From Elusimicrobiota bacterium (lineage in GTDB: Bacteria; Elusimicrobiota; Elusimicrobia; FEN-1173), in assembly GCA_022703335.1 (NCBI GenBank), contig JAKLDV010000003.1, positions 1 to 49,064 on the forward strand: a stretch of 49,064 nt of DNA, given 5' to 3'. The notes beneath the pieces were generated by a model that saw only the letters and a list, made by a program, of their open reading frames with translations, was not told where the DNA came from and did no database searches. The translations under genes were made by a program, and so were the position numbers. Of the stretch, positions 1,365-16,335 are shown piece by piece (the first letter of the stretch is position 1; the number at the start of each line of letters is the position of its first letter).

Positions 1365-3388
1365 TCCTCTCCCCGCCATTCCATGGTTTCGGTTCCGTTT
1401 TTCTCCCACCGGTTGGAATCCAGCCCCGGCCGGGACGAGGCCCCGGTGGCCACCGCGATCTTGTTCCCGACGAACCGGTTCTTCCTCACCCGCGGGACGG
1501 ACTCGCCGACGCACAGGAGCGCGACGTTGTCCGCCCCCTCAAAATAGTTCTTTTGCACGAACGGGCCCGAACGGTCCCGGCAGACCAGCCCCCGTCCGTT
1601 GTCCACGCAGCGGTTTTCCTCCCAGCGCGGAAAAGCCGTCCCTCCGCACGTGCCGGCGGCATAGGAGTTCTTCAAGAAACTGTTTTTTTTCACCAGGGCG
1701 CGGTCCTTTTCGAAGTGTCCGATGCCGGTGGCGTTCTTGGAAAAAATGTTTTTCTTCACAACGACCGGAGCCTCGCTGGAGGAACTCACCCCCTCGCGGC
1801 GCTGGCCCTGAAACACGTTGCGCCGGAGGTCCGCGGCGACCCACGGGCCGATACCGACGCCGACGGCGTTCGCCTGGAAGGTGTTGCCGGCCAGCAGCAG
1901 CCGGGCGTTGTCCAACCCTTGAACGCCCGCCTGGGCGTTGTCCTCGAACAGATTCCCCCGGCCCCGCACCGCCGCGCGGTGCCGAACGAGAACGCCGTGC
2001 GACCCCTGCCTTAAAAAATGATTCCCCGACATCGCCGCCCGCGACGTCTCTTTCAACTCCAGAGCGACCCCGTTCTCATCGAAACGGTTCCGGCGGCAGA
2101 GGACCCTCGACGCGGCGGCCAGGTCCAGCGCGGCGGCCGACTGGGCCCGGAACTCGTTTTCCTCCAAAGAACCGCGGGCCCCCCCGCAGAACTCCAGGCC
2201 CGTTTTGTTTCCGGACAACCGGGAACGGACGACGGAGACGACGGAGCGGTCCTGCAACTTGCCGGCGGAGGCGTTCTTCTGGAACTCACACTCCCGCAAA
2301 CGAAGACGGCTTTTCCCCTGAGAGGAGATCGCCGTCCCGTTCTCCCAAAAACGGCACGCCGTCATCTCGGCGCGGACGCCGTCCTGGGTCTGAAGCGCCG
2401 CCTCTTTCAAATGCCCATGGAGGAACGCGCGCCGGAACCGAAGCCGGGCGCGGCGCAAGCCCCGCACGCCGACGGAAGACCCCGGACCGATCTTATCGTC
2501 GTCGGACACCAGATGGGCGTCGTCCAGGACCTCATATCCCACCGCGTTATGCAGAAACCTGTTGCCTCGAGCGTGGCCGTGGGACTTGTCCTGTAGGAAA
2601 ACGGCGATCTTTTCGTGACCCTCGAAGGCGTTGGTGTTGAGGTCTATCCAGGCCCGCCCCTGTCCCAGAAGTCCCGCCTCGCTGTTGTTCCGGAAACTGC
2701 ATCGCTCCATCCGCGCGAAGGAGGCGTCGTCGGCGCGGACCCCCCACTGGTTCTCAAAAAAATAGTCCCCCTCCGCGAGAACGGCGGCGAAGTCGTAACT
2801 CAATATCCCGCGCCCATTGGAAAAAAAAGAACTGTCCGTCACCGAGACGCTGCCGAACCCGGCCGCGGAGAGACCGGTCTCGCTTCCGCTGAACTTCCCT
2901 CCCTGCACCCGCAGATGCGCGCGGTCATGGCACAGAACCCCGGCCCGCGCGGCATGGGACAACTCCACCCATTCCATGTCGGCCCGCGCCCGGCCCAAAA
3001 GGACGATGCCGCCCCACGTTTTGCCCTCCGGCAGGAACCGAACCGGCTTCTCCGTTGTGCCCCGGACGACGAGGCGTCCCCAACAAATCAAGCGGCCGAA
3101 GGCGAGGTCGTTGCCCTGGAGCTGTCCGCGGTCGCCGGAACGGAGGAATTTGTATTTCCAAAGAGGCTTTTCCGCCGTACGTATCTGGGTTCCCGGATCG
3201 ACCTCGAGAACGGCACCGGAGGGCACCACCACGTCTCCCAGGAGACGCACCTCCCCGCTCCAGCGGGTCGTCTTGGGCAAAAAACCGACACAGTGGCCCG
3301 GGGGAAGTCCCTGGGAAAGAGTCTCCGTGCGACAAACCGGCCAGGACAAGGGCTCCTCGACGCTCTTGAAAATCCCCCCCCGCGCCAT
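1361..3388 (-). CDS. Right-handed parallel beta-helix repeat protein
   Basis: A 675-residue protein built from many ~20-25 residue repeats of the form N-x-F-x-x-N-x-x-G-V/A-x, for example NNSEAGLLGQGRA and FSKNATGIGHFEKD. This is the pattern of NosD/pectate-lyase-like parallel beta-helices. The ATG at 3388 lies 5 nt past the upstream radical SAM stop codon. The open frame continues upstream, but that part is a shadow of the radical SAM gene. I see no convincing signal peptide, which is unusual because such helices are usually exported. The fold often binds or cleaves polysaccharide, but no catalytic residues can be named. It sits between two radical SAM genes and could be a partner or a substrate of them; that is inference. 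Confidence 0.85.
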   Translation of the reverse strand: MARGGIFKSVEEPLSWPVCRTETLSQGLPPGHCVGFLPKTTRWSGEVRLLGDVVVPSGAVLEVDPGTQIRTAEKPLWKYKFLRSGDRGQLQGNDLAFGRLICWGRLVVRGTTEKPVRFLPEGKTWGGIVLLGRARADMEWVELSHAARAGVLCHDRAHLRVQGGKFSGSETGLSAAGFGSVSVTDSSFFSNGRGILSYDFAAVLAEGDYFFENQWGVRADDASFARMERCSFRNNSEAGLLGQGRAWIDLNTNAFEGHEKIAVFLQDKSHGHARGNRFLHNAVGYEVLDDAHLVSDDDKIGPGSSVGVRGLRRARLRFRRAFLHGHLKEAALQTQDGVRAEMTACRFWENGTAISSQGKSRLRLRECEFQKNASAGKLQDRSVVSVVRSRLSGNKTGLEFCGGARGSLEENEFRAQSAAALDLAAASRVLCRRNRFDENGVALELKETSRAAMSGNHFLRQGSHGVLVRHRAAVRGRGNLFEDNAQAGVQGLDNARLLLAGNTFQANAVGVGIGPWVAADLRRNVFQGQRREGVSSSSEAPVVVKKNIFSKNATGIGHFEKDRALVKKNSFLKNSYAAGTCGGTAFPRWEENRCVDNGRGLVCRDRSGPFVQKNYFEGADNVALLCVGESVPRVRKNRFVGNKIAVATGASSRPGLDSNRWEKNGTETMEWRGEE

Positions 3389-3393
3389 GTCCG

Positions 3394-4542
3394 TCAAGGA
3401 GCGACCGGAACGGGCGACGGCAGCGCCAAGGCGAGCAGACGGTCGATCACCGGATTGGCCGTGCACATCAGCCAGCAGTCGCACCGACCGGCGTCGATAT
3501 GCTCCCTCAACCGACGGGCCTTGTCGTTCTCCCACAAAACGTCGAACGGAGTCTCCCTCACGTTCCCCACGGGTTTTTTCTTGTGCGGGGAACAAAAAGA
3601 AACGTTGCCCCACGGATCGAGCATGGCGTATCGCCGGCCGGCCAAACACGGAGGAAAGTAGCGTTTCGGTTCGAAACCGTAGTCCACCAGCGTCCGCCAA
3701 TAATAAAGCCGCGCCCACAGCCATTTCAATTTGTCGGCCTCGTCCCGATAAATGTGGCCGACGGCGTCCGCCTGTCGACACAACCGATCCACGAGGGCGT
3801 CCACCTGCCGGGACACCTCCCCCAACTGGGCCCGCGTCCAGCGGAACACCTCCGTCCCTTCTTTTTGGACGACGTATTGAGCGCCGAAGCCGCACTTATG
3901 AGCCTCGGCCCAGTCGTGGACCGCCGTGAGCTCCCGGTAATTGTGCGGCGTCATCGTGTAGGTGATGCTGACGTCCACCGACGGGTAGCGTTCCCTCAAG
4001 AAGGCGATGGTCTTCACCATCCGGTCCCAGGACCCCGGCGCGCCCCGCATTTTGTCGTGAACGGGGCCGATGCCGTCCATGGAGGTGCCGACCCACAAAC
4101 GGGGAGCGCATCGGGAAAATATCTCGTCGAGCCGGGCGCGGATGAGCTCCTCGTTGGAAAGGTTGCTCAGGATGCCGATGGACGCCGACGGTGAATGCGC
4201 GGTGAAAAAATCGACGAGCTCCACGGCGTCGTTCTTGAGCAGAGGCTCTCCGCCGCTCAAGACGAGGACCTCGAGGCGGGACAGCTTCTTCGATCCGCGG
4301 ACGAACCTTTTGATCTCGTCGGCCCCCATCTCCAGCGAAACCTTCGTGCTGTCCTGCCGTTCCTGTCCCCAAAGATCGCAGATCCGGCATTTCAAGTTGC
4401 ACCGGTAGGTCAACTCAAAGTGCAGTTCCCGAAGGACCTCGTCGTCGGCCGTAAAGACAGGCCATCGAGCAAGACCGGAGTCTTTCCAACGGTCCAGTTT
4501 CGGATAGATAAATTCTTTAACGGTGGCGTTTGGTTTTTTCAT
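3394..4542 (-). CDS. Radical SAM/SPASM-type maturase
   Basis: A 382-residue protein with the radical SAM motif CNLKCRIC (Cys48, Cys52, Cys55) in a typical ELTYRCNLKC context, a GGEPLL motif near residue 117, and a Cys-rich C-terminus (FPPCLAGRR, NVSFCSP, CDCWLMC) suited to auxiliary Fe-S clusters. SPASM enzymes modify peptides or other macromolecules with 5'-deoxyadenosyl radical chemistry. The ATG overlaps the TGA of a 33-codon ORF (ATGA), and a near-consensus sigma-70 promoter lies about 170 nt upstream. The substrate is unknown. A glycan-type radical SAM enzyme is a possible alternative. Confidence 0.92.
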   Translation of the reverse strand: MKKPNATVKEFIYPKLDRWKDSGLARWPVFTADDEVLRELHFELTYRCNLKCRICDLWGQERQDSTKVSLEMGADEIKRFVRGSKKLSRLEVLVLSGGEPLLKNDAVELVDFFTAHSPSASIGILSNLSNEELIRARLDEIFSRCAPRLWVGTSMDGIGPVHDKMRGAPGSWDRMVKTIAFLRERYPSVDVSITYTMTPHNYRELTAVHDWAEAHKCGFGAQYVVQKEGTEVFRWTRAQLGEVSRQVDALVDRLCRQADAVGHIYRDEADKLKWLWARLYYWRTLVDYGFEPKRYFPPCLAGRRYAMLDPWGNVSFCSPHKKKPVGNVRETPFDVLWENDKARRLREHIDAGRCDCWLMCTANPVIDRLLALALPSPVPVAP

Positions 4543-4851: not shown

Positions 4852-6447
4852 ATGAAAATGGTCCGACCCCTCCTCCGGCGTCACATCGTTTCCCTCGCGT
4901 TGCGTTCGTCCGTTTTTCGTTCCCTGTTCGCTTCGTTCTACGCATTCCTCCTTCTCCTTTTGAAGCGCCGGGCCGCCGCCGGCGCCCTGAAAACTCTCTA
5001 TCTTCGCCAGGGACTCCTCGAACCGGAATGGATCCCGGGCGCCAGCGACATCGACACCCTATGGGTATGTCCGAAACCGGACATCTCCGGGACGCACACA
5101 GGCCGCCTCCTACGCCGGCTGGCGCAACTCAAGAAACTGTTCCCCTTCCTGGGAGAATCCCAGGTGGTGGACGAAGCCGAACTTTCCGCCTATCTTCGTC
5201 ACGGCGACGCCAAACGCCGGACCGCCGTCCAATGGAAACCCCTCCACGGCCAACCGCTGCCGCCGGGACCGCCGACGGATCCGGCCGGCTGGGAATGGCC
5301 CTGGGATTGTTGGGCGCAGGCGTTCGACGCCCACGAACTCCTCCTGCAATGCTATTTTTCCGAGGAAGACGGCGCGGCGACCCGTCGGCTGAACGCCCGC
5401 AAACACCTGCTCGATGTGCACCGCTGGTTCTTCGCCATGGATTCCGGCGCCCCGCCGCCGACCCGGGAAGAAACCGCCCATAAAATCTCCGCCCGGTCCG
5501 CCGCCGAGGCGGACCCTGAAAAAAGCTGGGCTCTTCCGCTCCTTCAGTCCGCGGACCTCCCTTTGGGGAAATTCCCCCAGGTCCTGGCGCGCACCATGAC
5601 GTGCCTGCGCCGCCGGGGAGACAACATCGTCTCACGTTTTCCGTCGGGAAAAAACGCCCCCCCGCCGCCGGCAGGCCGCCCCCACGACGACGCCTGGGAA
5701 CGGCAGGCGTGGGAAAAACGGTTCCGTGCCCTGCGGGAACGGGACGGCGAGGGGATCTCCGGCCTGGCCTGGGACACGGTGCGCCGGGCAACGATCCTGT
5801 TGCGGGACGACCTCCCCGAGGACGCGGCGGCGGAACTTCTGAAAACACTGCGGCATTTCAAAAAGGGGGACCGCGGACTGCGGGGCCCCCTCACGGTGGT
5901 CCCGGAACAACTCTTCCGTCTCCGTCAATGGAGCATCGCCGAAGGAACCCCTTTCGGGCCCTACGGTCTCCGGACGGACATCCCCGCCGGGACGTCGGCG
6001 GCGTGGCGGCCGTCGACGCGCCCGCTGCTCCGAAACCATTTTTGCGGCCAGATCGGCCTGCCCAAAATATCGCCGCCGCCCGCGCCCGTGCTCGACCGGC
6101 TCGCCCGCCAAACGGCCGCCGATTGGCTCCTCAACCGACGGACCTATCCTCTCGCGGCCCTGTCCAGCCCGCCGCTCTACGTGTGGCAATCCCTCCTGAT
6201 GCCGGCTCTTTCGGCCCGGCTCTATCTGTTCGCCGGCATCGCAAGCGACCCTCACGACCTGGAGGGCGCCCTGCTTCTCTGCCGGGAGACGTTTCCCGAA
6301 GACAAACCCTGGTGGGACGCGCTGCTGCGGACGTTGGAGGTGGAGGAGCCCGCGTGGGACGGGCGGGCGGTGCTGGAGACGATGGAACGGGAGGCGGCCG
6401 GCTTCGAAAAAACGGCCGGGGCGCTGTTAGAGGGACTGGGCGGGTAA
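4852..6447 (+). CDS. Nucleotidyltransferase-fold protein of a peptide-modification type cluster
   Basis: A 531-residue protein. A hydrophobic stretch (about residues 21-38) precedes a GASDID motif at residues 63-68, which matches the G-x-S-D-x-D metal/NTP-binding signature of DNA-polymerase-beta-like nucleotidyltransferases. The remaining ~450 residues are not recognisable. An upstream TTG at 4813 is in frame, but ATG 4852 is preferred because a -10-like TATCCT lies 10 nt before it and no ribosome site is seen. The gene is divergent from the radical SAM operon and its 3' end overlaps the convergent glycosyltransferase gene by 21 nt. Nucleotidyltransferase-like proteins accompany PqqD/HprK-like pairs in some RiPP clusters; a role with those genes here is inference. 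Confidence 0.65.
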   Translation: MKMVRPLLRRHIVSLALRSSVFRSLFASFYAFLLLLLKRRAAAGALKTLYLRQGLLEPEWIPGASDIDTLWVCPKPDISGTHTGRLLRRLAQLKKLFPFLGESQVVDEAELSAYLRHGDAKRRTAVQWKPLHGQPLPPGPPTDPAGWEWPWDCWAQAFDAHELLLQCYFSEEDGAATRRLNARKHLLDVHRWFFAMDSGAPPPTREETAHKISARSAAEADPEKSWALPLLQSADLPLGKFPQVLARTMTCLRRRGDNIVSRFPSGKNAPPPPAGRPHDDAWERQAWEKRFRALRERDGEGISGLAWDTVRRATILLRDDLPEDAAAELLKTLRHFKKGDRGLRGPLTVVPEQLFRLRQWSIAEGTPFGPYGLRTDIPAGTSAAWRPSTRPLLRNHFCGQIGLPKISPPPAPVLDRLARQTAADWLLNRRTYPLAALSSPPLYVWQSLLMPALSARLYLFAGIASDPHDLEGALLLCRETFPEDKPWWDALLRTLEVEEPAWDGRAVLETMEREAAGFEKTAGALLEGLGG

Positions 6448-7671
6448 CGCTTTTTTCCGTCGATAATTCTCCATTATTTCCTTGTAAAAATCGTCCACCT
6501 GGTCGGCGAGCCGGTCCCAATCGTAGGTCGTCTCCACCAACTTCCGCGCGTTCCGTATCAACCGGTCGCGCAGGACCCGGTCGAAAATCAGCCGCGCCGT
6601 TTTTTCCGCGAACTCCCGCGGATTCCGTCCCAAGAGGTAATGCTCCTCCGGCCGGGCCTGCAGCCCGCGGGCGCCCACGGGCGTGGTCACCACCGGGAGC
6701 CGCATGGCCCAGGCCTCCAATATTTTCCCCTTGATCCCCTCCCCCAGCCGCAACGGCGCCACAAAAACGTCCGCCTTCTCCAGATAGGGTTTGACGTCCT
6801 TGACCGTTCCGGTCACGTGGATCCGCGGGTTCTTCTGCAGGTCCTCCACCGCTTTGGTCACGCCGGAGCCGACGACCCACAGATGGACGATGGGGCAGAG
6901 CTTTTCGATGAGCGGAAAGATCTCCCTGCAAAAATAGAGGATGGCGTCCTCGTTGGGATAATGCATGTAATGGCCCACGTAAACCAGGTGCGCCTCCGCC
7001 TCCCGGGGACTCGTCCCGTTCTGGCGGCCCGGCGAAAAATGTTTCAGGTCCACCCCCGTGTAGATGCATTGGACCCGCAGGTCCGGAAGAAAACTTCTCA
7101 ACTTCTCCGTGTCCGGAGGCGTCAAGGTCACCACGCCGTCCAGCCCCCGGCAGGCGTCCATCTGGTATTTCACCAGCCGCATCCACTCCACGACCCTTCC
7201 CCACCGCCGCCAGCCCGTCATCTCCCGGAAATACGACCGGAAAAAAGAGATGTTGCTGATGTCGTGTTCCGTAAAGACGACCGGGACATCCCTTATCCAC
7301 CGCCGATAATACGCCATTTGGACGAATTCGATGTGCACCAGGTCCGGCGGAGATTCCCGCAGCAGCGTCTGCAGGGAAGCCGCCATGGCCGGGGAATAAC
7401 AGCTCTTGACGATCTCGGGAAGGAAAAGCTCCTCCGCCGCCGGGACCGGCGCGGGGCTGAGCAGGACGGGATAGACCGCTTTGCAGAATTTTTTCAGCGC
7501 GGGCACGTCCCAGACCTGCTCCTGTTTGTTGATGAAGGAAAGCACCGTGAAGTCGTATCGGTCGGAGAGGAGCCGGAGGATGGTATGGACGCGCTTCTTG
7601 CCGCCGTCGACGGGCGGCGAGGGCAGGAACGGCATCAGGAAAAGGACGTGGGGCTTGCGCTTGCGCGGCAT
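6427..7671 (-). CDS. GT4-like glycosyltransferase
   Basis: A 414-residue protein with the GT-B layout. The N-terminal domain starts with PHVLFLMPFLPSPPVDGGKK, whose Gly-rich turn suits acceptor binding. The C-terminal domain carries LGEGIKGKILEAWAM with the E-x7-E-type nucleotide-sugar site, followed by PVVTTPVGARG. It belongs to the family 4 retaining glycosyltransferases, probably cytoplasmic or membrane-associated. The ATG at 7671 is 4 nt past the stop codon of the 47-aa ORF. It is the last gene of the minus-strand unit that begins near 16374 and is a paralogue of the protein at 13066-14337: both have an H/E-I-E-x-x-Q-M-A segment and the G-I-K-G-K-I motif. Confidence 0.92.
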   Translation of the reverse strand: MPRKRKPHVLFLMPFLPSPPVDGGKKRVHTILRLLSDRYDFTVLSFINKQEQVWDVPALKKFCKAVYPVLLSPAPVPAAEELFLPEIVKSCYSPAMAASLQTLLRESPPDLVHIEFVQMAYYRRWIRDVPVVFTEHDISNISFFRSYFREMTGWRRWGRVVEWMRLVKYQMDACRGLDGVVTLTPPDTEKLRSFLPDLRVQCIYTGVDLKHFSPGRQNGTSPREAEAHLVYVGHYMHYPNEDAILYFCREIFPLIEKLCPIVHLWVVGSGVTKAVEDLQKNPRIHVTGTVKDVKPYLEKADVFVAPLRLGEGIKGKILEAWAMRLPVVTTPVGARGLQARPEEHYLLGRNPREFAEKTARLIFDRVLRDRLIRNARKLVETTYDWDRLADQVDDFYKEIMENYRRKKALPAQSL

Positions 7672-7675
7672 CCGC

Positions 7676-7819
7676 TCAGTCCCGCGGCCGGCGAAACCCC
7701 GCGCCGCGCAGGACCAGCTCGGTCCAGCGTCGCAGGAAAATGGCGGCGACCTCGCGCGTCAATTTCCAGACCGCAACGCCGCGCCGCACAGGAACGCGCC
7801 AGTCCGTGGGAAGGGCCAA
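7676..7819 (-). CDS. Small ORF (47 aa), function unknown
   Basis: A TTG at 7819 stands 8 nt behind GGAG, which itself follows the stop codon of the peptidase-like gene. The frame ends at 7676, 4 nt before the next start codon, so it fills the gap between two genes exactly. The product begins with TLALPTDWRVPVRRG or near it, has an amphipathic central part (VWKLTREVAAIFLRRW) and an Arg-rich tail. No family is recognised. It could be a small accessory subunit, a substrate peptide, or a remnant. Its position and ribosome site favour translation. Confidence 0.5.
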   Translation of the reverse strand: MALPTDWRVPVRRGVAVWKLTREVAAIFLRRWTELVLRGAGFRRPRD

Positions 7820-7831
7820 GGTTTTTCTCCG

Positions 7832-8443
7832 TCAGTCGGCGGCCGCGGGCGCCAACGCCTCAAAGAAGCCGTCGGAGAGCCGGAGGACCGCCCGCCAATA
7901 AAAATCGCGCCCGCCGTCCAACACGGGGACGAGACACAAAAGAAAACCGCGCGCCAACAGGCGCAGGGGGCCGCGGCCGCGCAGCGAAACCCCCAGGACC
8001 GCCACGAATCCCCGACGGTAAATGTTCCCGAAAACCCAATCGGCCGACCGCAGGAGTTTCGCAAAAACGAGGAATCCCAAACTCCCGATTCTCACCCGGC
8101 CGCCCGCCCACGGGAAACGTCTTTCCCGCCGCCGGATCTCCGTGACCCGCCCCACCATGATGCCGTCGGCGGAGTCGCCGGAAAAATTCCAATCCCCCAT
8201 CGTCCGATAGCGCCACGACGGGCCCCTCCGGCTTTTCCACAACAGCCGGTGGACGACGTAGCCCACCGCGGGACCGCCGGCCAGCGCCGCCAGGACGACG
8301 AGGTCCCCCGTCCGCAGGACCTCCCCCTCGCAACGCTGAAAACGGATGGCGTCCCCCTCCCGCAGCAGCGGCGTCATCGAGGGCCCCTTCACCTGGAACC
8401 AATCCTCCGCCCCGGCCGGCGGCGATCCCGGAGAGGCGCTCAT
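7832..8443 (-). CDS. S26B-type (Ser/His) signal-peptidase-like protein
   Basis: A 203-residue protein. The motif VKGPSMTPLL gives the nucleophile Ser22, GYVVHRL gives His65, and TMGDWNFSGD (81-90) matches the conserved T-x-G-D-x-N-x-x-x-D box of signal peptidases. Histidine instead of lysine places it with the Sec11/SipW type (S26B). Unlike those, it has no membrane segment before the serine; hydrophobic stretches lie only in the ~100-residue C-terminal half, which I do not recognise. The start ATG 8443 overlaps the ABC ATPase stop (ATGA). Peptidases of this kind occur in modification clusters with PqqD and HprK-like genes, where cleavage of a precursor is the presumed job; here that is inferred. 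Confidence 0.78.
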   Translation of the reverse strand: MSASPGSPPAGAEDWFQVKGPSMTPLLREGDAIRFQRCEGEVLRTGDLVVLAALAGGPAVGYVVHRLLWKSRRGPSWRYRTMGDWNFSGDSADGIMVGRVTEIRRRERRFPWAGGRVRIGSLGFLVFAKLLRSADWVFGNIYRRGFVAVLGVSLRGRGPLRLLARGFLLCLVPVLDGGRDFYWRAVLRLSDGFFEALAPAAAD

Positions 8444-9213
8444 GTTCCGCGGGCCTCCGCCGTTTTTTTCATGCGCAGGGCCACGGTGTTTTCGTATTTC
8501 GTTATCACCGAGGGGACATCCCCGAACGCCATCTGGCGGCCGCCGTCGATGTAGACCGCCTTGTCGCATACGCCCACGATATCGTCCATGGAATGCGACA
8601 CCAAAATGATCGTTTTCCCCTGCTCCTTGATCTTTCTGAAAAAACGTTTGCACTTCTCCCGAAAGTAGGCGTCCCCCACCTCGAGCGTCTCATCCACCAG
8701 CAGAATGTTCAGGTCCGCGTGGATGGCGATGGAGAAGGCCACCCGCGACGCCCAGCCCACCGACAGATCGGCCACCGCCGCGTACAGGTAGTCGGAGAGC
8801 TCGGAGAACTCGATGATGCTGTCGAGTTTCCGTCGGAATTCCCGCCCCGTATACCCCAACAGGGCCGCGCAAAGTTTCAGGTTCTGCATGACCGTCAACT
8901 GCGGCAGCAGGCTGACCCCCAACGCCAAAAAGGGGTTCACCGGCCCGTTGGACTCCACCCGCCCCTCGTTGGGCTGGAGTATGCCCGACAGTATCCGCAA
9001 AAGAGTGCTCTTGCCGGAACCGTTCGGACCGATGACGCCCAGCCCTTCCCCGTGTTCCACCCGGAAAGAGACGTTCCGCAGCGCCCAGAAACTGCGCGTG
9101 GGCTGATGCCCCTGGACCCAATAGCGGAACTGCTGGCCGAGCATCTTCTGGCGCATGGTGCCGATGTCGAACTTCTTCCCGACGTTTTCTGTCAGGACCG
9201 CGAAGTTCCTCAT
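8440..9213 (-). CDS. ABC exporter ATPase, polysaccharide-export type
   Basis: A 257-residue ATPase with Walker A GPNGSGKST, a signature region LSVGWASRVAFSIA, Walker B ILLVDETLEVGD and switch His in LVSHS. Its similarity is to the KpsT/Wzt/TagH family, which energises export of lipid-linked glycans through ABC-2 permeases. No C-terminal carbohydrate-binding domain is present, so export need not be coupled to recognition of a glycan end. The ATG at 9213 overlaps the permease TGA (ATGA). With three glycosyltransferases in the same unit, glycan or glycolipid export is the likely role. Confidence 0.93.
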   Translation of the reverse strand: MRNFAVLTENVGKKFDIGTMRQKMLGQQFRYWVQGHQPTRSFWALRNVSFRVEHGEGLGVIGPNGSGKSTLLRILSGILQPNEGRVESNGPVNPFLALGVSLLPQLTVMQNLKLCAALLGYTGREFRRKLDSIIEFSELSDYLYAAVADLSVGWASRVAFSIAIHADLNILLVDETLEVGDAYFREKCKRFFRKIKEQGKTIILVSHSMDDIVGVCDKAVYIDGGRQMAFGDVPSVITKYENTVALRMKKTAEARGT

Positions 9214-9998
9214 GGGAATTTTTCCGCGAAATGCGGTTCCCCTTTCTTGAAGAACCGGTAGCCGAACCACGCCAGCGCAAGCGAGAACAACAGCAATATC
9301 CCCAGAACGCGCGGAGAAGGCCATTGGTCATAGACCATGAACTTCCTGGTCTCTGCGATGACCTGGGCCATGGGGTTGAGCAGGAGTATCTGCCGCCGGT
9401 CCGGCGCGACGATTTCCACCGGGAAAAAAATGGGGGTGACGAAAAAGCCCGTCATGGTCACGATCTCCCAGATGCGCACCATGTCCTTGTAGTCCACCGC
9501 CAGGCGCGCCAGGAGGAACGACGCCCCCAGGATCATCACCGTCTCCAGCAACACCAGTCCCGGCAGCAAAAACCACTTCAACGAGGGCGCGTCCCCGAAG
9601 GCGAACAGGAACGGGATCATCACCCCGAGTTCCAGGAGATGGATCAGCAGGTTCGTAAAGACCGACGAGATCACCAACGCCGACCTCGGAAAAATGAAGT
9701 TCGAGATCAGCCCCGATTTTTGCAGCAGCGACGTCATCCCCCCGGTCGTCCCCTTCACAAAATAGTTCCACTGCACCACCCCCACCAGCAGGTACATGGG
9801 AAAGGACGGGACGTGGTTCCCCATCCACTTGACGAACAGGGCGTAGAGGACGACGAACATGAGCGTCGGATGGAGCAGCGTCCAAAGGAACCCCAACAGG
9901 GTGCTCTGGTCCCGCAACTTGAACTCGCAACGCGTCAGTTCCTTCACGAGGTTCCAAAAATGCTGGGGTGTCACGTGCAGACGGTTTGTGTAGGTCAT
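9210..9998 (-). CDS. ABC-2 type exporter permease, polysaccharide-export type
   Basis: A 262-residue membrane protein with about six hydrophobic segments and the typical N-terminal motif of O-antigen/teichoic acid exporters, LRDQSTLLGFLWTLLHPTLM, followed by a Trp-Asn-Tyr-Phe segment (VVQWNYFVKGTTGG). It pairs with the ATPase that overlaps its stop codon. It starts 4 nt past the stop codon of the sulfatase-like gene. Confidence 0.93.
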   Translation of the reverse strand: MTYTNRLHVTPQHFWNLVKELTRCEFKLRDQSTLLGFLWTLLHPTLMFVVLYALFVKWMGNHVPSFPMYLLVGVVQWNYFVKGTTGGMTSLLQKSGLISNFIFPRSALVISSVFTNLLIHLLELGVMIPFLFAFGDAPSLKWFLLPGLVLLETVMILGASFLLARLAVDYKDMVRIWEIVTMTGFFVTPIFFPVEIVAPDRRQILLLNPMAQVIAETRKFMVYDQWPSPRVLGILLLFSLALAWFGYRFFKKGEPHFAEKFP

Positions 9999-10002
9999 CT
10001 CC

Positions 10003-11319
10003 CTAATCCAGGTAGCCCAACTGCCTCAGCCGGGCCACGATGTCGGCCGAGGGTTTTTCATTACGGCCGGCCTCTGATTCTACCGCAGAACCTTCCTGCC
10101 TTTCAATCGATAACAACCGCCTCTTCAGCGGCGCGAACGGTTTCCGCGACCGGGGGTCACAGGGATGCCGTTCTCCCCAATCCCGGCGGAGGTCGTAGGC
10201 CCTCCATTCGTCTTTCTCGCAGTCGCGGATCAATTTATGCCGGCCCCGGCGGAGCCCCCGCAGGAGGGCGGTCCCTCTCTCCGCCGGTCCGGAAGACGGT
10301 TCCGAAAAAGACGACCGCGGGGAGGCGAAATGTTCCATGTAGATTTCGGAGGGCCGCGTCGGGCGCGGCCCCCAGCAGCGGGACAGGCTCTTCGACGGAA
10401 GACCGGGGGGCGGTCTCAGGCCGAAAAATTCCAGGATCGTGGGGAACACGTCCATCAGCCCCACCGGAACGTCTATTTTTTCCCCGCGCGGGAACGACCC
10501 GTTGCCGCTGAAAATCACCGGCACGCGGACCTCCGTCTCCTCCAGACCGACCGGATGCGGTTCGCCGTGGTCTCCCAGGATCACCCACATCGTCGACTCT
10601 TCGCACCCGAGGGAGCCCACGAGGTCCCGCAAAGGACCCAGTTCGTTCCGGTCGAAGAAATTGACGGCGTCCAGATACGCCGCCAACCTTTTGTCCAAAG
10701 CGCGACCGCAGGGTTCCCGCAACGCGCGGTAAAGCGCGTCCGGATCGGCGATGGGCCGGCCGGCGCGCCGCTCCCATTGCGCCTCGGTGAGATAATCGTG
10801 CACGGAGGCGGTGTGAAAGAATACGAAAAATCTTTCCCGTCCATGCTCCCGCAGCCAGCGGAAAACCCCGGAAAGCCGTTCTTCGAAAAGATGCGTGCTG
10901 ATGTCGCGGAGGTCGTCAAAACCTCGACGGAAACCGAACGAATCCGAATGGAAGATGTGCGGCATGCCGGAGGCGCTGAGGGTGGAGAACCCGGCCGCCT
11001 TGAAGAGTTCCGCCAGGAGGGGCACGCCGGCCGGGACCTTTTCCTGTCCGAACAACGACCGCACGCCGTGTCGCCAGGGCCACTGGCCCGTGAAAAGGCC
11101 GGCGTGCGCGTTTGTGGTGTATGGCGAACTGCTCACCGCGCCGGAAAAATGAACCCCCGTCCGCGCCAGGGCGTCCAAAACGGGCGTCCGGCGGCGCGCC
11201 GGCAACGCGGGGTCCACGGCGGCCAGATAACGCGTGTCGTCCTCGCACGCCGGGGCGTCGAAACGCAGGGAGTCGACGGAAACGAGGACGAGGTTTCGGG
11301 GAGCGGCGGTCTTTTTCAT
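10003..11319 (-). CDS. Sulfatase-superfamily hydrolase/transferase with Thr in the nucleophile position
   Basis: About 438 residues. The N-terminal metal-binding motif is VSVDSLRFD (Asp16), the C-terminal one GDHGEPH, and the protein ends in a sulfatase-like LRQLGYLD. Where formylglycine sulfatases have C/S-x-P-S-R-x-x-L-x-T-G, this protein has TTNAHAGLFTG (residues 68-78). The nucleophile position is therefore Thr68 and the Ser/Arg pair is lost, which argues against sulfate-ester chemistry and for phosphodiester or phosphotransfer chemistry. The start is uncertain: ATG 11319 follows the previous stop (TAAAATG), whereas GTG 11340 has GAGG in front and would overlap that gene by 20 nt. No signal peptide is visible, so it may act in the cytoplasm. 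Confidence 0.85.
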   Translation of the reverse strand: MKKTAAPRNLVLVSVDSLRFDAPACEDDTRYLAAVDPALPARRRTPVLDALARTGVHFSGAVSSSPYTTNAHAGLFTGQWPWRHGVRSLFGQEKVPAGVPLLAELFKAAGFSTLSASGMPHIFHSDSFGFRRGFDDLRDISTHLFEERLSGVFRWLREHGRERFFVFFHTASVHDYLTEAQWERRAGRPIADPDALYRALREPCGRALDKRLAAYLDAVNFFDRNELGPLRDLVGSLGCEESTMWVILGDHGEPHPVGLEETEVRVPVIFSGNGSFPRGEKIDVPVGLMDVFPTILEFFGLRPPPGLPSKSLSRCWGPRPTRPSEIYMEHFASPRSSFSEPSSGPAERGTALLRGLRRGRHKLIRDCEKDEWRAYDLRRDWGERHPCDPRSRKPFAPLKRRLLSIERQEGSAVESEAGRNEKPSADIVARLRQLGYLD

Positions 11320-11320
11320 T

Positions 11321-12682
11321 TTATAGGATCGATTTCCCACGCAAGGTCCTCGGAAGGGGGTGTCCCAAAAGTTTCAGCACCGTCGGCGCGATGTCGATGA
11401 TCCGTATCTTTCGCCGGCCCCTCAACGGGACGTCCGTCCCGCCCAGCCAAAAAAATCCGTTCCGGGCATGGACCGCGTCATCCGGCCCGGTGTCGTTTTC
11501 CCGCAAGTAGAGACCGTTGTGCCCCAGGGTCCCGGCGGAACGATGGCCCAGATCGTCCAAATAGACCAGCAGGTCCGGCGGCTGGCCCCGCCACGATTTA
11601 TCGGACAAGAGGACCTGATTCTTCCAGCCCTCTCCCCCCGGGCCGCGCAAGCCCCGGAAAGCGCGGGCCAGTTTCCGGCGGAGCGGCTCGTAGTCCCTCC
11701 TCGACACCGCGCCGGCCGGTTCCCGCCCCTTCACGTTGATGAATATCCGGGCGTAATACCCGCCCCAGCCCCAGGCGCGGGTGCGCGGCCAGTCCACGTC
11801 GCAGGACTCGATCGGCGTCGGCTTTTCCGGATATCTCTTCAATTTCAAATAACCCTCCCGCAAAAGCCACTCGTTCACGCAGAAACATCCGTTCATGCGT
11901 TTCGACCCGTGATCGGACGCCAGAAGCACCGCGGTGTCCGCGGGGAGCTCCCCGAAGAGCGATTCCAGCTGCCGATCCAAAAATCCGTAATAGTCCGGGA
12001 TGGCCCTTTCGAATTCGTTCCCCGGCCGATAGCCCGGATGTCCCTTGTCGAAAAACTTCCAAAACGCGTGGTGCATCCGGTCCGGCCCGATGTCCACGAA
12101 CATGGCGAAATCCCACGGATGGTTTTTCAGGAGGCGCTTCGTCATTTCGAATTTATGCCGGGAGGTCTCATAGATCTGGGCGAGTGTCGACGCCCGGTCT
12201 TCCCGCCGGAATTCCGCGTCCAGCCGGGGCCGGGCGCCGAGCCAGGACTCGATCTGCTTCATCACGGCCGGCGGCGTGGCGTACGGCGCGGACGAAGGCG
12301 TCAAAAGACAGGAGACCCACGGCCCGCGGATGCGGCGCGGCGGGTAGGCGGGCGGAACGCCCACCACGACGGAGGGCCGGCCCCGTCGGCCCAGATAATC
12401 CCAAACCGCCGGCTCTTTTATGGAGGTCGACGAGGCGAGCCGGATGTCCGAGTAGGGATTTTCCCCCCTCTCCCGGAAACCGTACACCCCCAGTTCTTTC
12501 GGTTCTTTCCCGGTCGCCAGGACGGCCCAGGCGGGCACCGTGATGGGCGGGTCACAAGAAACCATTTCGCCGTACACGCCCCGCGACATGAGGCGCCGGA
12601 CGAACGGCATCTTAAAATCGGGGTGGTCGAAGAACAATTCCGGGGGGATGGAATCCAAACCCGCGATCAGAACGCGCGTCAC
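11321..12682 (-). CDS. Type I phosphodiesterase / alkaline-phosphatase-superfamily enzyme
   Basis: A 453-residue protein. Metal ligands are visible at Asp10 (AGLDSIPPE), DRMHHAFW and SDHGSKRM. The nucleophile is probably Thr48 in PPITVPAWAVLATG, the pattern of nucleotide pyrophosphatase/phosphodiesterases and related phosphoglycerol or phosphonate enzymes. The start is GTG 12682, with AAGGA 9 nt upstream. Two enzymes of one superfamily lie side by side here, so one may build and the other trim a phosphodiester decoration on the exported molecule (inference). Confidence 0.88.
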   Translation of the reverse strand: MTRVLIAGLDSIPPELFFDHPDFKMPFVRRLMSRGVYGEMVSCDPPITVPAWAVLATGKEPKELGVYGFRERGENPYSDIRLASSTSIKEPAVWDYLGRRGRPSVVVGVPPAYPPRRIRGPWVSCLLTPSSAPYATPPAVMKQIESWLGARPRLDAEFRREDRASTLAQIYETSRHKFEMTKRLLKNHPWDFAMFVDIGPDRMHHAFWKFFDKGHPGYRPGNEFERAIPDYYGFLDRQLESLFGELPADTAVLLASDHGSKRMNGCFCVNEWLLREGYLKLKRYPEKPTPIESCDVDWPRTRAWGWGGYYARIFINVKGREPAGAVSRRDYEPLRRKLARAFRGLRGPGGEGWKNQVLLSDKSWRGQPPDLLVYLDDLGHRSAGTLGHNGLYLRENDTGPDDAVHARNGFFWLGGTDVPLRGRRKIRIIDIAPTVLKLLGHPLPRTLRGKSIL

Positions 12683-12762
12683 GCGACGATGTCCTTGGCC
12701 GATGGGGAAGGAGGGACGGGGGGAGAAACGGAGGGGGACTTCAACGTCTTATGAAAAGAAGG

Positions 12763-13041
12763 TCACTTTCCCGGCGTGACGAGGTTCTCCTTCTTCATTT
12801 TTTTTATGATGGCGGACACGTCTTTTTTGACCGTGGCGACTTTTTGGCCGTAATCCTCGGCGACCTCCTCGGCGATGGCCTCCTCGGAAAGCCCCTTGCC
12901 GATGAGTTCCCAAATCTTGCTCCCGGTCTCGTTCAACGAATAATACACGCTGGTTTCCAAATCCAGGATGACGACCTCGTCGTCCACTTTTCTCCACGCC
13001 ACGTGTTTTGCATGGCGCCCCACCGCTTGCCCGATACGCAT
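12763..13041 (-). CDS. PqqD-family peptide chaperone/carrier protein
   Basis: A 92-residue protein with the PqqD pattern: VDDEVVILDLETSVYYSLNE (residues 19-38), then GSKIWELIGKGLSEEAIAEE and a C-terminal helix DVSAIIKKMKKENLV. PqqD-like domains bind leader peptides and deliver them to modification enzymes. No radical SAM gene is adjacent (the nearest is 8 kb away); the closest partner is the HprK-like gene one gene upstream. ATG 13041 has AGGAGG-type purines just before it. An 80-nt gap separates it from the phosphodiesterase gene. Confidence 0.88.
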   Translation of the reverse strand: MRIGQAVGRHAKHVAWRKVDDEVVILDLETSVYYSLNETGSKIWELIGKGLSEEAIAEEVAEDYGQKVATVKKDVSAIIKKMKKENLVTPGK

Positions 13042-13065
13042 AGTTCCTCCTCTAAAAACCGCGAC

Positions 13066-14337
13066 TCACCGCCACAAGATCCCGCTGTTTCCGTAACTTC
13101 GGTCCGGGGCGGACACCCGCCGATAAAACGCATCCAACCGCTCCGCGCATTTTTCCCAGGACAGGTTCTTCTCCACCCACTGCCGCGCCGGCAAAACCAT
13201 CGACTGACGGAGCGTTTTATTTTTTAGCAAATTAATCGTCTCTTTGGCAAACTCCCCGGCGTCGCGGCCCAGACGGACGAAGCCCCTCGTCTCCGGAGGG
13301 AACCCGGACATGGCGGACGGGGTGGCCGCCACGGGGAGACCGACGGCGAACGCCTCCACGATCTTTCCCTTAATCCCCCACCCCAGCCGGGTGGGCACGA
13401 CGAACACGTGCGCCGCCTTGAACGCGCCGACGATGTCCTCCACGTATCCTTCGACGCGCACGTTTTTCCCGGCCCGCTCCTTCAGCCAGGCCGGAACGCC
13501 GGCGCCCACGAACGTGATGCGGGCGTCGGGGAGCTCGTCGAGGATGAGCGGCCATATCTCGTCCAAAAAATACCGGGCGGCGTCCGCGTTGGGCGGATGA
13601 TGGAAATAACCGACGAAAAGAAGTTCCGGCCGGCGCATCTCCGGCTCGACTTTTCGGAACGAGAACCGCGACAGGTCCACCCCCAGAGGCACATAGCCGG
13701 TCGGCACGGTCGAGGGCCCCCACGTATCCCACCAACGCATGTCCTCCGGACTGGTCAAAACAACCCCCTGAAACGCTTCCGCCGTCCAATAATGGCTCCA
13801 CAGTCCTTTCAACCACGCCCGCACCCGTTCATGGACGGGCCAACCGCGCCGGCCCGCATGCAACGAGTTATTGAACCATACCCAGCCCACATCGTGCTCC
13901 ACCAAGATCGTCGGGGGACCGAAAACGAAGCGGCGGCACCCCGCCATCTGGATATGTTCGATCTCGACCAAATCGTAGCGTTCCTCCCGCAGGGCTTTCT
14001 GGAGGACGCCCCCCATCCTCTCAAAAGCGGGGCCTTCCGAGACTTTCTTGTCCAAAAAATCCGTCCACAGATTTTCCGAGGAGGCCGGGACCAGGTAGGT
14101 CTTTTCAAAGAGCATGGCCAGCCGCAGTTTCATCGCCGAGAGAGCGACCCGGTCGTTGAACGTCGCCTCGCTGACGAACGTCGCCAAGGAAAACGCGTAT
14201 TTCTCCTTCAACAAACCGGCGAGTTTCCATATCCGGATGTTGGTGCTCTCAAAAAGCGGGAACGGCGGATGGGGCGCCACGATCAACACCCTTTTCCGGC
14301 TGTCCTTCTTCGTCTTCATGCGCCGGCTCTCACGCAT
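13066..14337 (-). CDS. GT4-like glycosyltransferase
   Basis: A 423-residue GT-B protein. RVLIVAPHPPFPLFESTNIR marks the acceptor-domain start; PTRLGWGIKGKIVEAFAVG and PVAATPSAMSG mark the nucleotide-sugar site. It is a clear paralogue of the enzyme at 6427-7671. ATG 14337 overlaps the HprK-like stop by 8 nt; an in-frame ATG at 14319 is an alternative start. It probably acts in assembly of the glycan exported by the ABC pair. Confidence 0.92.
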   Translation of the reverse strand: MRESRRMKTKKDSRKRVLIVAPHPPFPLFESTNIRIWKLAGLLKEKYAFSLATFVSEATFNDRVALSAMKLRLAMLFEKTYLVPASSENLWTDFLDKKVSEGPAFERMGGVLQKALREERYDLVEIEHIQMAGCRRFVFGPPTILVEHDVGWVWFNNSLHAGRRGWPVHERVRAWLKGLWSHYWTAEAFQGVVLTSPEDMRWWDTWGPSTVPTGYVPLGVDLSRFSFRKVEPEMRRPELLFVGYFHHPPNADAARYFLDEIWPLILDELPDARITFVGAGVPAWLKERAGKNVRVEGYVEDIVGAFKAAHVFVVPTRLGWGIKGKIVEAFAVGLPVAATPSAMSGFPPETRGFVRLGRDAGEFAKETINLLKNKTLRQSMVLPARQWVEKNLSWEKCAERLDAFYRRVSAPDRSYGNSGILWR

Positions 14338-15310
14338 CTTCGAACGTCTCCATCGTCACGGAAACGGTTTTCGCGTTGGCGACCGTATCGCGGCTCAGCC
14401 GCCACAGGTAAACCCGACGGCATGCCAAAAGCCTCATCATCGTCCGCGTCCGCGAAAAAGCGTTCTTCAACAACCCCCCCGTCGCCCGGACGTCCCACCG
14501 CAAAAGATATTCGCGCCCCTGCGGAACGCCGACCCCGACCAGCAGGGACGAGATCAACGCCGGCGCCGCCCGCCAAGCGGCGACCCGTCGCAACAATTTC
14601 TCCCCCGGCGCGGCCCACCCCCTTTGTCCCACAAAAATGGCCGACGGGACGAACGGCCCCCCGACGGCGATCCGTCCCTTCCAATAATCGATGTCCACCA
14701 ACATCTTCGGCCCATATTCTTTTCGGCGGAAAACCCGCTGCATCGATTCCGGGATCCCGTCGATGTTCCGGTCGCCGCAAATGCCGACCCTCAGCGGGAA
14801 CGGCCACAACCTCCCCTGTTCGTCCACCAGCGGCGTGTCCTCCGAAACCAGCCGCACGGGAAAACTCCGGAGCGCTTCCAGCGCGAAGGTGGTTTTCCCG
14901 CCGCCCATCGGCAGGAGCATCAGCGCACATTTGCCTCCCCATTCCAGGGCCAGGCCGTGCACCCGGTGCAACCCGCGCCGGTCCAGCATTTCCCCCACGC
15001 GGCTCAACAGCAGCAGATATCCCAACTCATGCAGCCGATGCGGTTCCGCGCAAAAGACGCCTCCCTCTTCCTCGGAAAAATCGTAATCCACGACGGCCTC
15101 CGGGTCGTGGTGGACGAACCGCCGGGAATTTTTCTTTTGCGGCACCGCCGACGGCGGGAGGGTCGCGCTCAGGCCCAATCGAACATGCGGCATGGACTTT
15201 TCCGGATCCGCCCGGAACCATTGAAAATCCCTCCGGAATTCCTCCAGAATGGATTCAGCCTCCGATTCGATCGCCGCGCGCACCCCATAGAAATCCAAAA
15301 AAAGCTTCAT
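14330..15310 (-). CDS. HPr-kinase-like P-loop protein
   Basis: A 326-residue protein. Its phosphate loop LPMGGGKTTFALEAL (Lys139, Thr140) is followed by RLVSEDTPLVDEQGRLWPFP, which aligns with the LISDD-type Walker B of HPr kinase/phosphorylase. The ~120-residue N-terminal part is not like HPr kinase, and I see no HPr gene nearby. HprK-like kinases linked to PqqD proteins are known from peptide-modification clusters; in some lasso peptide systems such a kinase phosphorylates the precursor. The ATG overlaps the GT2 stop (ATGA). Protein or peptide phosphorylation is the likely activity; the substrate is unknown. Confidence 0.82.
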   Translation of the reverse strand: MKLFLDFYGVRAAIESEAESILEEFRRDFQWFRADPEKSMPHVRLGLSATLPPSAVPQKKNSRRFVHHDPEAVVDYDFSEEEGGVFCAEPHRLHELGYLLLLSRVGEMLDRRGLHRVHGLALEWGGKCALMLLPMGGGKTTFALEALRSFPVRLVSEDTPLVDEQGRLWPFPLRVGICGDRNIDGIPESMQRVFRRKEYGPKMLVDIDYWKGRIAVGGPFVPSAIFVGQRGWAAPGEKLLRRVAAWRAAPALISSLLVGVGVPQGREYLLRWDVRATGGLLKNAFSRTRTMMRLLACRRVYLWRLSRDTVANAKTVSVTMETFEDA

Positions 15311-16335
15311 GTGTCCCGTCCTGCCGACGGCGAATTCAACCCCGGCCGGAGGAAACCGCACACCAATCCCGCGCCGTACGTCATATGCGCTCCCGAAATC
15401 AACAGGCCGACGCACCCCGCGCCTTTCACGCCAAGACGGTCTTCCCACAGCGCCCGGGCCATTTCCCACCCCAGAAACCCGAGGTATACCCCCAACGGGA
15501 GGAAGATCGCCCCCGGGCGGACCCACGGAAGCGTCAGAAGATACACCACCATCAGACTCGGCGCGGCGCAGACGGCCCGGAAACTCCCCGGCACGCGCCG
15601 CCACATGTGTCCCCGGCCCACGCCGGAATGCCAGACCTGCCTCAAAAATCCGCCCCACCCGTTCCGGCGCTCATGAAAAACCTCCAGCGCCGGAGAATAC
15701 ACCAACCGGACCCCGTCGTTCTTCAAGCGGGTCAGCAAAACGTTCTCCTCGTTATAGTGGAAGTCCTCGGGAAACGCGGGGCGGCCGGCCTGAAAGAGGG
15801 CCCGCCGGAACATCAGGTTGCACAGGATCAGGTCACCGTCGTCGGCCGCGCGCCGGCGACCCAAGGGACGATACCGCGCCCGCATGCGGCCCGTGCCCAG
15901 CCACGACGTCAACACCCGCCCCACGCACCGCTGGAACGGCGTGGCGTCTTTCGGCGTGCTGTTCGGTCCGCCGATCACCCCCGCGGCCGGTTCCGCTTCC
16001 ATCTCCTCCCGCATCCGAAAAAAGATGTCCGGCGGCACCGTCACATCGTCGTCGATGAAATAGACCCATTCTCCCCGCGCCGAGAGCGCGCCGAGATTGC
16101 GGGCGCGGCCTTTCGAGGAACGTTCCAGTTCCACCCAGCGAAAATCCGGCCGCGACGCCGCGTGTTTCTCCGCCCAGCCCCGCGTCTCCGCGTCGGCGCC
16201 GTTGATGACGAGAACAATCTCCCCCGGCAGCGGCGGCCGACACGCCTCCACGCTTCCGATGCATCGCACCAGAGGCTCCAACCGTTTATGGGTGATGACG
16301 ACGACGCTGAGGAGGATGGATTCGGGATTGGTCAT
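15307..16335 (-). CDS. GT2 family glycosyltransferase with C-terminal membrane segment
   Basis: A 342-residue protein. The GT-A start is ILLSVVVITHKRLEPLVRCI, the metal-binding triplet is in VYFIDDDVTVP, and an EENVL segment matches the catalytic-base ED(E)V region. Two hydrophobic segments near the C-terminus (LMVVYLLTLPWV, GAIFLPLGVYLGFLGW) suggest a membrane anchor. ATG 16335 is chosen because the extended -10 box lies 39 nt before it; the open frame upstream would start at a TTG inside the promoter. It is the first gene of the coupled unit 16335-6427. Confidence 0.92.
   Translation of the reverse strand: MTNPESILLSVVVITHKRLEPLVRCIGSVEACRPPLPGEIVLVINGADAETRGWAEKHAASRPDFRWVELERSSKGRARNLGALSARGEWVYFIDDDVTVPPDIFFRMREEMEAEPAAGVIGGPNSTPKDATPFQRCVGRVLTSWLGTGRMRARYRPLGRRRAADDGDLILCNLMFRRALFQAGRPAFPEDFHYNEENVLLTRLKNDGVRLVYSPALEVFHERRNGWGGFLRQVWHSGVGRGHMWRRVPGSFRAVCAAPSLMVVYLLTLPWVRPGAIFLPLGVYLGFLGWEMARALWEDRLGVKGAGCVGLLISGAHMTYGAGLVCGFLRPGLNSPSAGRDT

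Follow-up and report, generated by a model that had tools for sequence, protein, structure and literature searches.

A probable lasso-related, cyclase-free peptide-modification pathway inside a glycan assembly and export operon of an Elusimicrobiota bacterium

The window analysed here is an entire contig (C192; GenBank JAKLDV010000003.1, 49,064 nucleotides) of an Elusimicrobiota bacterium (genome G000, GCA_022703335.1; 2.66 Mb assembly, 268 contigs). It carries a cluster in which an HprK-like kinase, a discrete recognition element of the PqqD type, a nucleotidyltransferase (NT) and an S26B-like peptidase lie among glycosyltransferases and an ABC-2 exporter pair, with neighbouring genes that abut or overlap (Table 1). 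The cluster probably encodes a lasso-related, cyclase-free pathway for a ribosomally synthesized and post-translationally modified peptide (RiPP), of the type described for Linear Polyphosphorylated Peptides (LPP), within a glycan assembly and export operon. An earlier note on the window had described a minus-strand unit (16335-6427) with a convergent NT gene (4852-6447), and all of these genes were confirmed at their positions. The interval marked there (4852-16335) proved too short, the radical SAM/SPASM, beta-helix and B12 radical SAM genes also being part of the cluster, and of its two "phosphodiesterase-like" enzymes one was borne out (PF01663) while the other belongs to the sulfatase/alkaline-phosphatase superfamily (PF00884). 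Genes were called with a simple purpose-made caller, which mis-called some neighbours in high-GC loci; for this reason domain matches rather than gene calls carry the argument.

Table 1. Genes of the cluster (window coordinates) and the two candidate precursor peptides of the same genome.
Feature	Position	Strand	Basis or remark
GT2 glycosyltransferase	15307..16335	-	PF00535 E 6e-21
HprK-like kinase	14330..15310	-	predicted fold and motif; no convincing Pfam match
GT4 glycosyltransferase b	13066..14337	-	PF13692 E 9e-24; kept in L012
PqqD-type discrete RRE (B1-like)	12763..13041	-	PF05402 E 5e-18
Type I phosphodiesterase/nucleotide pyrophosphatase family enzyme	11321..12682	-	PF01663 E 1e-35; kept in L012
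Sulfatase/alkaline-phosphatase-superfamily enzyme	10003..11340	-	PF00884 E 1e-24
ABC-2 permease, Wzm/RfbD-like	9210..9998	-	PF01061 E 8e-11; NF050109 below cut-off
ABC ATPase, TagH/Wzt-like	8440..9213	-	PF00005 E 5e-20; NF010065/NF010066 below cut-off
S26B archaeal-type signal peptidase-like enzyme, candidate leader peptidase	7832..8443	-	TIGR02228 E 9e-6, below cut-off
GT4 glycosyltransferase a	6427..7671	-	PF13692 E 7e-29; TIGR03087 E 4e-63, below cut-off
Nucleotidyltransferase (NT), pol-beta type, SDxD motif	4852..6447	+	motif and AF2 model/Foldseek
Radical SAM/SPASM enzyme (rSAM9 family)	3394..4542	-	PF04055 and PF13186
Right-handed beta-helix protein	1361..3388	-	PF13229 E 3e-44
B12-binding radical SAM enzyme, truncated at contig end, start approximate	3..1379	-	PF04055, PF02310
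Own-genome peptide 1	C236:34674-34799	-	MSKKKLIKTSGSKRGRRYVKPHLTVHGRLERVVYGMEFTPD; between GT4 and GT2
Own-genome peptide 2	C252:2830-2937	+	MRRKVRSSKPAGKKTYKKPSITKHGRLHVYASPPF; between B12 radical SAM and GT2

Pfam gave a convincing family for neither the kinase nor the NT, even across all family members, and the folds of both were therefore predicted with AlphaFold2 (AF2) and the models searched with Foldseek. The kinase model (predicted local distance difference test, pLDDT, 93.8) matched the PEP-carboxykinase-like P-loop kinase fold, a superfamily that also contains HprK; HprK itself was not among the best 50 matches. Relatives of the kinase matched the HprK_rel_B and HprK_rel_A models (27-29 of 42 members; best E 4e-7 and 5e-8, respectively), the window member giving no match. 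A clear match to HPr kinase/phosphorylase was not obtained: PF07475 hit just three of the 42 members, at E 0.015 or weaker, and the best E for TIGR00679 was 0.003. In the family alignment His118, Gly138 and Lys139 were invariant and Asp158 nearly so. The spacing from His to Lys is 21 residues, the same as between H148 and K169 of BsfK (PMC10368454), and the kinase retains most of BsfK's H...GxGK[ST]...D residues. In PDB sequence searches the kinase matched other proteins only through its P-loop, and the NT found little. A membrane protein with C-terminal TPRs, TMTC-type glycosyltransferase-like by eye only, is encoded near the kinase at L014:10114-11973 and in 16 other loci.

The PqqD-type protein is a RiPP recognition element (RRE) whose best NCBIfam models were those of lasso_PqqD, below cut-off. 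Its best PDB match was the lasso RRE TbiB1 (E 2.5e-10), and a "PqqD family protein" (9x8z) was matched at E 0.003. Since the RRE is closest to lasso RREs, a role in pyrroloquinoline quinone (PQQ) biosynthesis was rejected. A second PqqD system lies on another contig of the same genome (C198, L020:2064-4426), in which an HprK-related protein, a PqqD, a radical SAM/SPASM enzyme and a precursor are followed by ABC transporter genes; this precursor has a cysteine-rich core (MSKKKKPYKKPTLLSEKIIEQAALGCKKCTSGNPIVQARCSAQLSSS), and a similar one was present in G155 (L134:10858-11004).

Residues S65, D66 and D68 of the NT motif were invariant in 18 sequences, and the top Foldseek matches of its model (pLDDT 80.7) were the aminoglycoside adenylyltransferases AadA and AAD(9) (probability 1.00). 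The NT is tied to other cluster genes by fusion. In many relatives the S26B, beta-helix and NT domains form one polypeptide with Ser, His and Asp conserved; the window has three separate genes. The motifs GPSM, VVHR and TMGD of the window peptidase, which hold these residues, align with the fused proteins at their N-terminal domain, and the window beta-helix protein is a separate homologue of their middle domain (phmmer E down to 3e-16). In three further genomes (G277, G287 and G037; loci L146, L127 and L109) the NT is fused to a GT2, and the window GT2 was the best match for the GT2 part in two of the three. The kinase loci of these three genomes have no neighbouring GT2; elsewhere, a GT2 of this family lies no more than two genes from HprK in 31 of 43 loci. 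The closest NCBIfam model to the window GT2 was MftF, with a score of 70 bits where the cut-off is 280.

A family of short peptides, its genes adjoining those for PqqD, the kinase or a glycosyltransferase in relatives, provides the candidate substrate. Its members (34-49 residues) have a lysine-rich start, a lasso-type leader [YW]xKPx[LIV]xxHGx[LI] with rare deviations, and a short conserved tail of about 1-9 residues, such as ...SEVASAFKP, ...SQTALARSY, ...ADVAAFSALY and ...SIVEGD. Curated lasso-leader models touched the leader region below cut-off, and a PDB sequence search with the peptides found nothing. Purifying selection was evident in three clades (pN/pS 0.11, 0.34 and 0.33), and tails were invariant within clades. 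Most PqqD-peptide pairs share 4 bp between the PqqD stop and the peptide start, and the two genes are often translationally coupled; other peptide genes stand directly beside glycosyltransferase genes, and one clade has a single operon of PqqD, peptide and kinase. The pN/pS values and the 4-bp overlap together argue that the peptides are real genes. The peptide or protein carrier supposed in the earlier note has a candidate family with an RRE-binding leader motif, and two copies occur in the genome, both with the leader YxKPx[LI]xxHGx[LI] and both outside the interval marked there. Most f9 and f11 peptides have Ser at +3, the Bsf site, with Tyr counted as -17 (ARSY, AHSY, AFSALY, SFSYTY).

Some peptide loci carry additional genes. 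In the f14 clade a gene for a FabD-like acyltransferase domain lies between peptide and kinase in 13 loci (for example L018:7734-8720) and a UbiA-type prenyltransferase gene is nearby in 10, which hints at a lipid step. In the f13 clade and G290 (L069, L078, L111, L132) the peptide gene directly follows one for a DegT/DnrJ-type sugar aminotransferase, assigned by Pfam from the L078 copy only, and the two overlap in three of the four loci. In kinase-bearing genomes outside the class, other short peptides with YKKPxLKKY are encoded next to PqqD and a number of B12 radical SAM genes (L131:9788-9886, L133:4241-4354) and are possibly counterparts.

Distribution was examined in 295 Elusimicrobiota genomes, and the figures for breadth refer to this phylum; a scan of a wider collection for the kinase with N-terminal patterns gave only three loci. 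The earlier note had named rare co-occurrence, or mostly unrelated contexts, as grounds for rejecting its reading, and the outcome was the opposite. The kinase was found in 45 genomes, the NT in 42 and PqqD in 110. Kinase and NT occurred together in 39 genomes (Fisher p 1e-38), also where they lie in different loci, and PqqD was present in 42 of the 45 kinase genomes. The peptide profile, built largely from kinase-proximal loci and searched against all 295 genomes, found the peptide in 32, of which 31 had the kinase (p 6e-30) and all 32 had PqqD; the sole genome with the peptide and no kinase is 79% complete. Fisher tests take no account of relatedness, and counts by genus are accordingly the safer guide: 21 genera shared out of 25 with the kinase and 22 with the NT (p 2e-15), and p 1e-9 for kinase and precursor. 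None of kinase, NT, peptide and PqqD occurs in G001, G003 or G004, three close relatives of the window's genome. The gene order NT, GT4, ABC, phosphodiesterase, PqqD, GT4, HprK, GT2 recurs in G005 (locus L012), from another family of the same order. Conserved order in G005 and co-occurrence across the phylum show that the neighbourhood is more than chance, and the earlier reading of a peptide-modification system in a glycan operon is largely supported. No earlier report of the gene set in Elusimicrobiota was found in a literature search whose scope excluded preprints and most subscription papers.

Other genes of the cluster are less constant. At the position of the sulfatase-family gene L012 has a different gene, APS kinase-like by eye (without a family search). 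In relatives the rSAM9 family adjoins PqqD/NT or HprK, the B12-binding radical SAM family was present in 21 of the 45 kinase loci and an ABC-2 permease of the window's family in 16. The roles suggested below for the ABC pair, the sulfatase and the phosphodiesterase follow from gene position.

The LPP pathway (LppA-K-B-S-D-N; Popov et al. 2026, PMC13381572), described as restricted to Bacillota, supplies the nearest precedent. There a YxxP leader is presented by LppB, the core receives several phosphates at Ser3 from LppK, and the SipW-like LppS cuts off the leader; the clusters are located in capsule/polysaccharide loci, and the final product and its function were unknown in that description (PMC13381572). 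Further experimental precedents are BsfK, which is boosted by its RRE BsfB1 and acts on Ser3 (PMC10368454), and PadeK, PsmK and PsmN, the last reported to install hexoses on phosphoserine (PMC9266682). By analogy with these homologues, the ribosomal micro-peptides would be made in trans from C236 and C252, and the PqqD-type RRE would bind the leader and present the peptide to the HprK-like kinase, which would phosphorylate a hydroxyl-bearing residue of the tail. We conjecture, because of the GT2-NT fusions and the PsmN precedent, that the NT with the GT2 then adds a nucleotide or sugar onto the phosphate. The glycan might be built up further or trimmed by the remaining glycosyltransferases and the sulfatase and phosphodiesterase; the S26B peptidase would cut off the leader, and the Wzm/Wzt-like pair may export the product. 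The GT2 is a candidate partner of the NT and of LppN, since it is the kinase's neighbour at most loci and three genomes have it fused to the NT.

Several points weigh against this pathway. The precursor was not found in the window by regular-expression, profile or DNA-pattern searches, nor in the syntenic locus L012, and the C236 and C252 peptides are putatively assigned to the window RRE and kinase by motif; trans placement is not merely an assembly effect, as G005, which is 100% complete, likewise has its peptide in trans. No peptide of the family was detected in 14 of the 45 kinase genomes. There is no phospho-acceptor position common to all peptides: those of f14 and f13 lack Ser at +3, and the L072 tail has neither Ser nor Thr. 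In the window kinase Glu157 replaces the first Asp of most members and the initial glycine of the P-loop is missing, and the structural matches of the NT model are weak, at E about 0.01. The LPP transporter is MsbA-like, whereas that of the window is of the ABC-2 Wzm/Wzt type. LppN was inactive when tested, its authors suspecting a missing partner (PMC13381572).

Other products have also been considered. Were the micro-peptide a primer or anchor, its tail would be phosphorylated and glycosylated and then extended by the glycosyltransferases to a polysaccharide for Wzm/Wzt-like export. Peptide genes adjoining glycosyltransferase genes, tails of a few residues invariant within clades, an ABC-2 pair at 16 of the 45 kinase loci and the GT2-NT fusions would suit this role; many kinase loci, however, have no ABC pair nearby, no direct link joins peptide and polymer, and LPP precursors have long cores. 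We consider it unlikely, and rather unlikely the specific case of a peptide-primed bacterial surface polysaccharide in which the kinase-phosphorylated tail is the base for building by NT and GT2 before Wzm/Wzt-type export. Invariant short tails, radical SAM genes in many loci and a GT2 closest to MftF would fit conversion of the tail to a small cofactor or signal, like PQQ or mycofactocin, with radical SAM enzymes acting on it and a sugar chain attached. Such a product is improbable, in that several loci lack radical SAM genes, mycofactocin has no kinase, NT or S26B peptidase, the exporter is of a surface type and the GT2 scores far below the MftF cut-off.

In several genomes the kinase, the PqqD/NT genes and the peptide gene are at separate loci, and the NT fold is nearest to sugar-acting enzymes. 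This would be expected if an intermediate of the glycan, be it a sugar or a lipid, were the substrate of kinase and NT, the peptide belonging to a separate PqqD/radical SAM pathway that shares the loci. We hold this to be quite improbable, given that all but one of the 32 peptide genomes have the kinase, that a single operon holds PqqD, peptide and kinase in one clade, and that characterised homologues act on peptides. Glycan loci are gene-rich and mobile, and the cluster has three glycosyltransferases and a polysaccharide-type exporter, as a chance neighbourhood of ordinary surface-glycan genes might; the order conserved in G005, the gene fusions and the phyletic co-occurrence contradict this, and it can be given very little credence.

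An LPP-type pathway in this distant phylum would widen the kind beyond Bacillota to a gene set that recurs across Elusimicrobiota, with a core shrunk to a few residues relative to LPP. It would tie phosphopeptides to glycan assembly through gene fusion, beyond neighbourhood alone. Naming the GT2 as candidate partner for the inactive LppN makes the LppN question directly testable.

Among known systems, the phosphorylated lasso peptides (paeninodin, pseudomycoidin, Bsf) have in common with the cluster a B1 RRE, an HprK-like kinase and, in some, an NT acting on a precursor with a [YW]xxP leader. As had been noted earlier, neither a lasso cyclase nor a transglutaminase-like leader peptidase (B2) was seen: PF13471 was absent from a genome-wide search, and the nine Asn_synthase matches of the genome all lie outside the window. 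A core long enough for a lasso, with Asp/Glu at positions 7-9 and room for both ring and tail, was not seen in the peptides. A lasso peptide pathway was ruled out because B2 is absent, the cluster has no cyclase and the tail is too short. The HPr-rel-A/B systems (TIGR04352, TIGR04355, TIGR04353) share an HprK-related kinase with a PqqD-family partner, and kinases of the family match them weakly; they differ in that the window kinase has no match and that these systems are uncharacterised, with no peptide described in the literature searched. Mycofactocin biosynthesis (MftA-F) employs an RRE-type chaperone, a radical SAM enzyme, a RiPP-glycosylating GT2 and a short C-terminal core. Counterparts of all four occur here; mycofactocin, in contrast, has no kinase, NT or S26B peptidase, and the GT2 here (70 against 280 bits) is not an MftF equivalog.

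The LPP pathway has the same discrete RRE, HprK-like kinase, archaeal-type S26 leader peptidase and NTP transferase, likewise without a cyclase and in a polysaccharide locus. The likeness of kinase and NTP transferase is by published description rather than by comparison with the LppK and LppN sequences, and that of the S26B enzyme, whose leader-cleaving role is predicted, comes from TIGR02228 (E 9e-6, below cut-off) and the conserved Ser/His/Asp. The precursor motifs, YxxPxVLxHQxIxFETxxS in LPP and YxKPx[LIV]xxHGx[LI] here, agree in the spacing of Y1, P4, hydrophobic 6, H9 and I/L12; Q, FET and S3 are largely missing here, and the tail is very short (about 1-9 residues, against a LppA core of 45). 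Peculiar to the present set are its occurrence in Elusimicrobiota, the S26-beta-helix-NT and GT2-NT fusions, a precursor often in trans and the GT2 as constant partner. Because the transporter, the full precursor motif and the phylum disagree, and the comparison with the LPP proteins is by published description, the cluster is called a variant rather than a member of the LPP pathway, like which it would appear to work.

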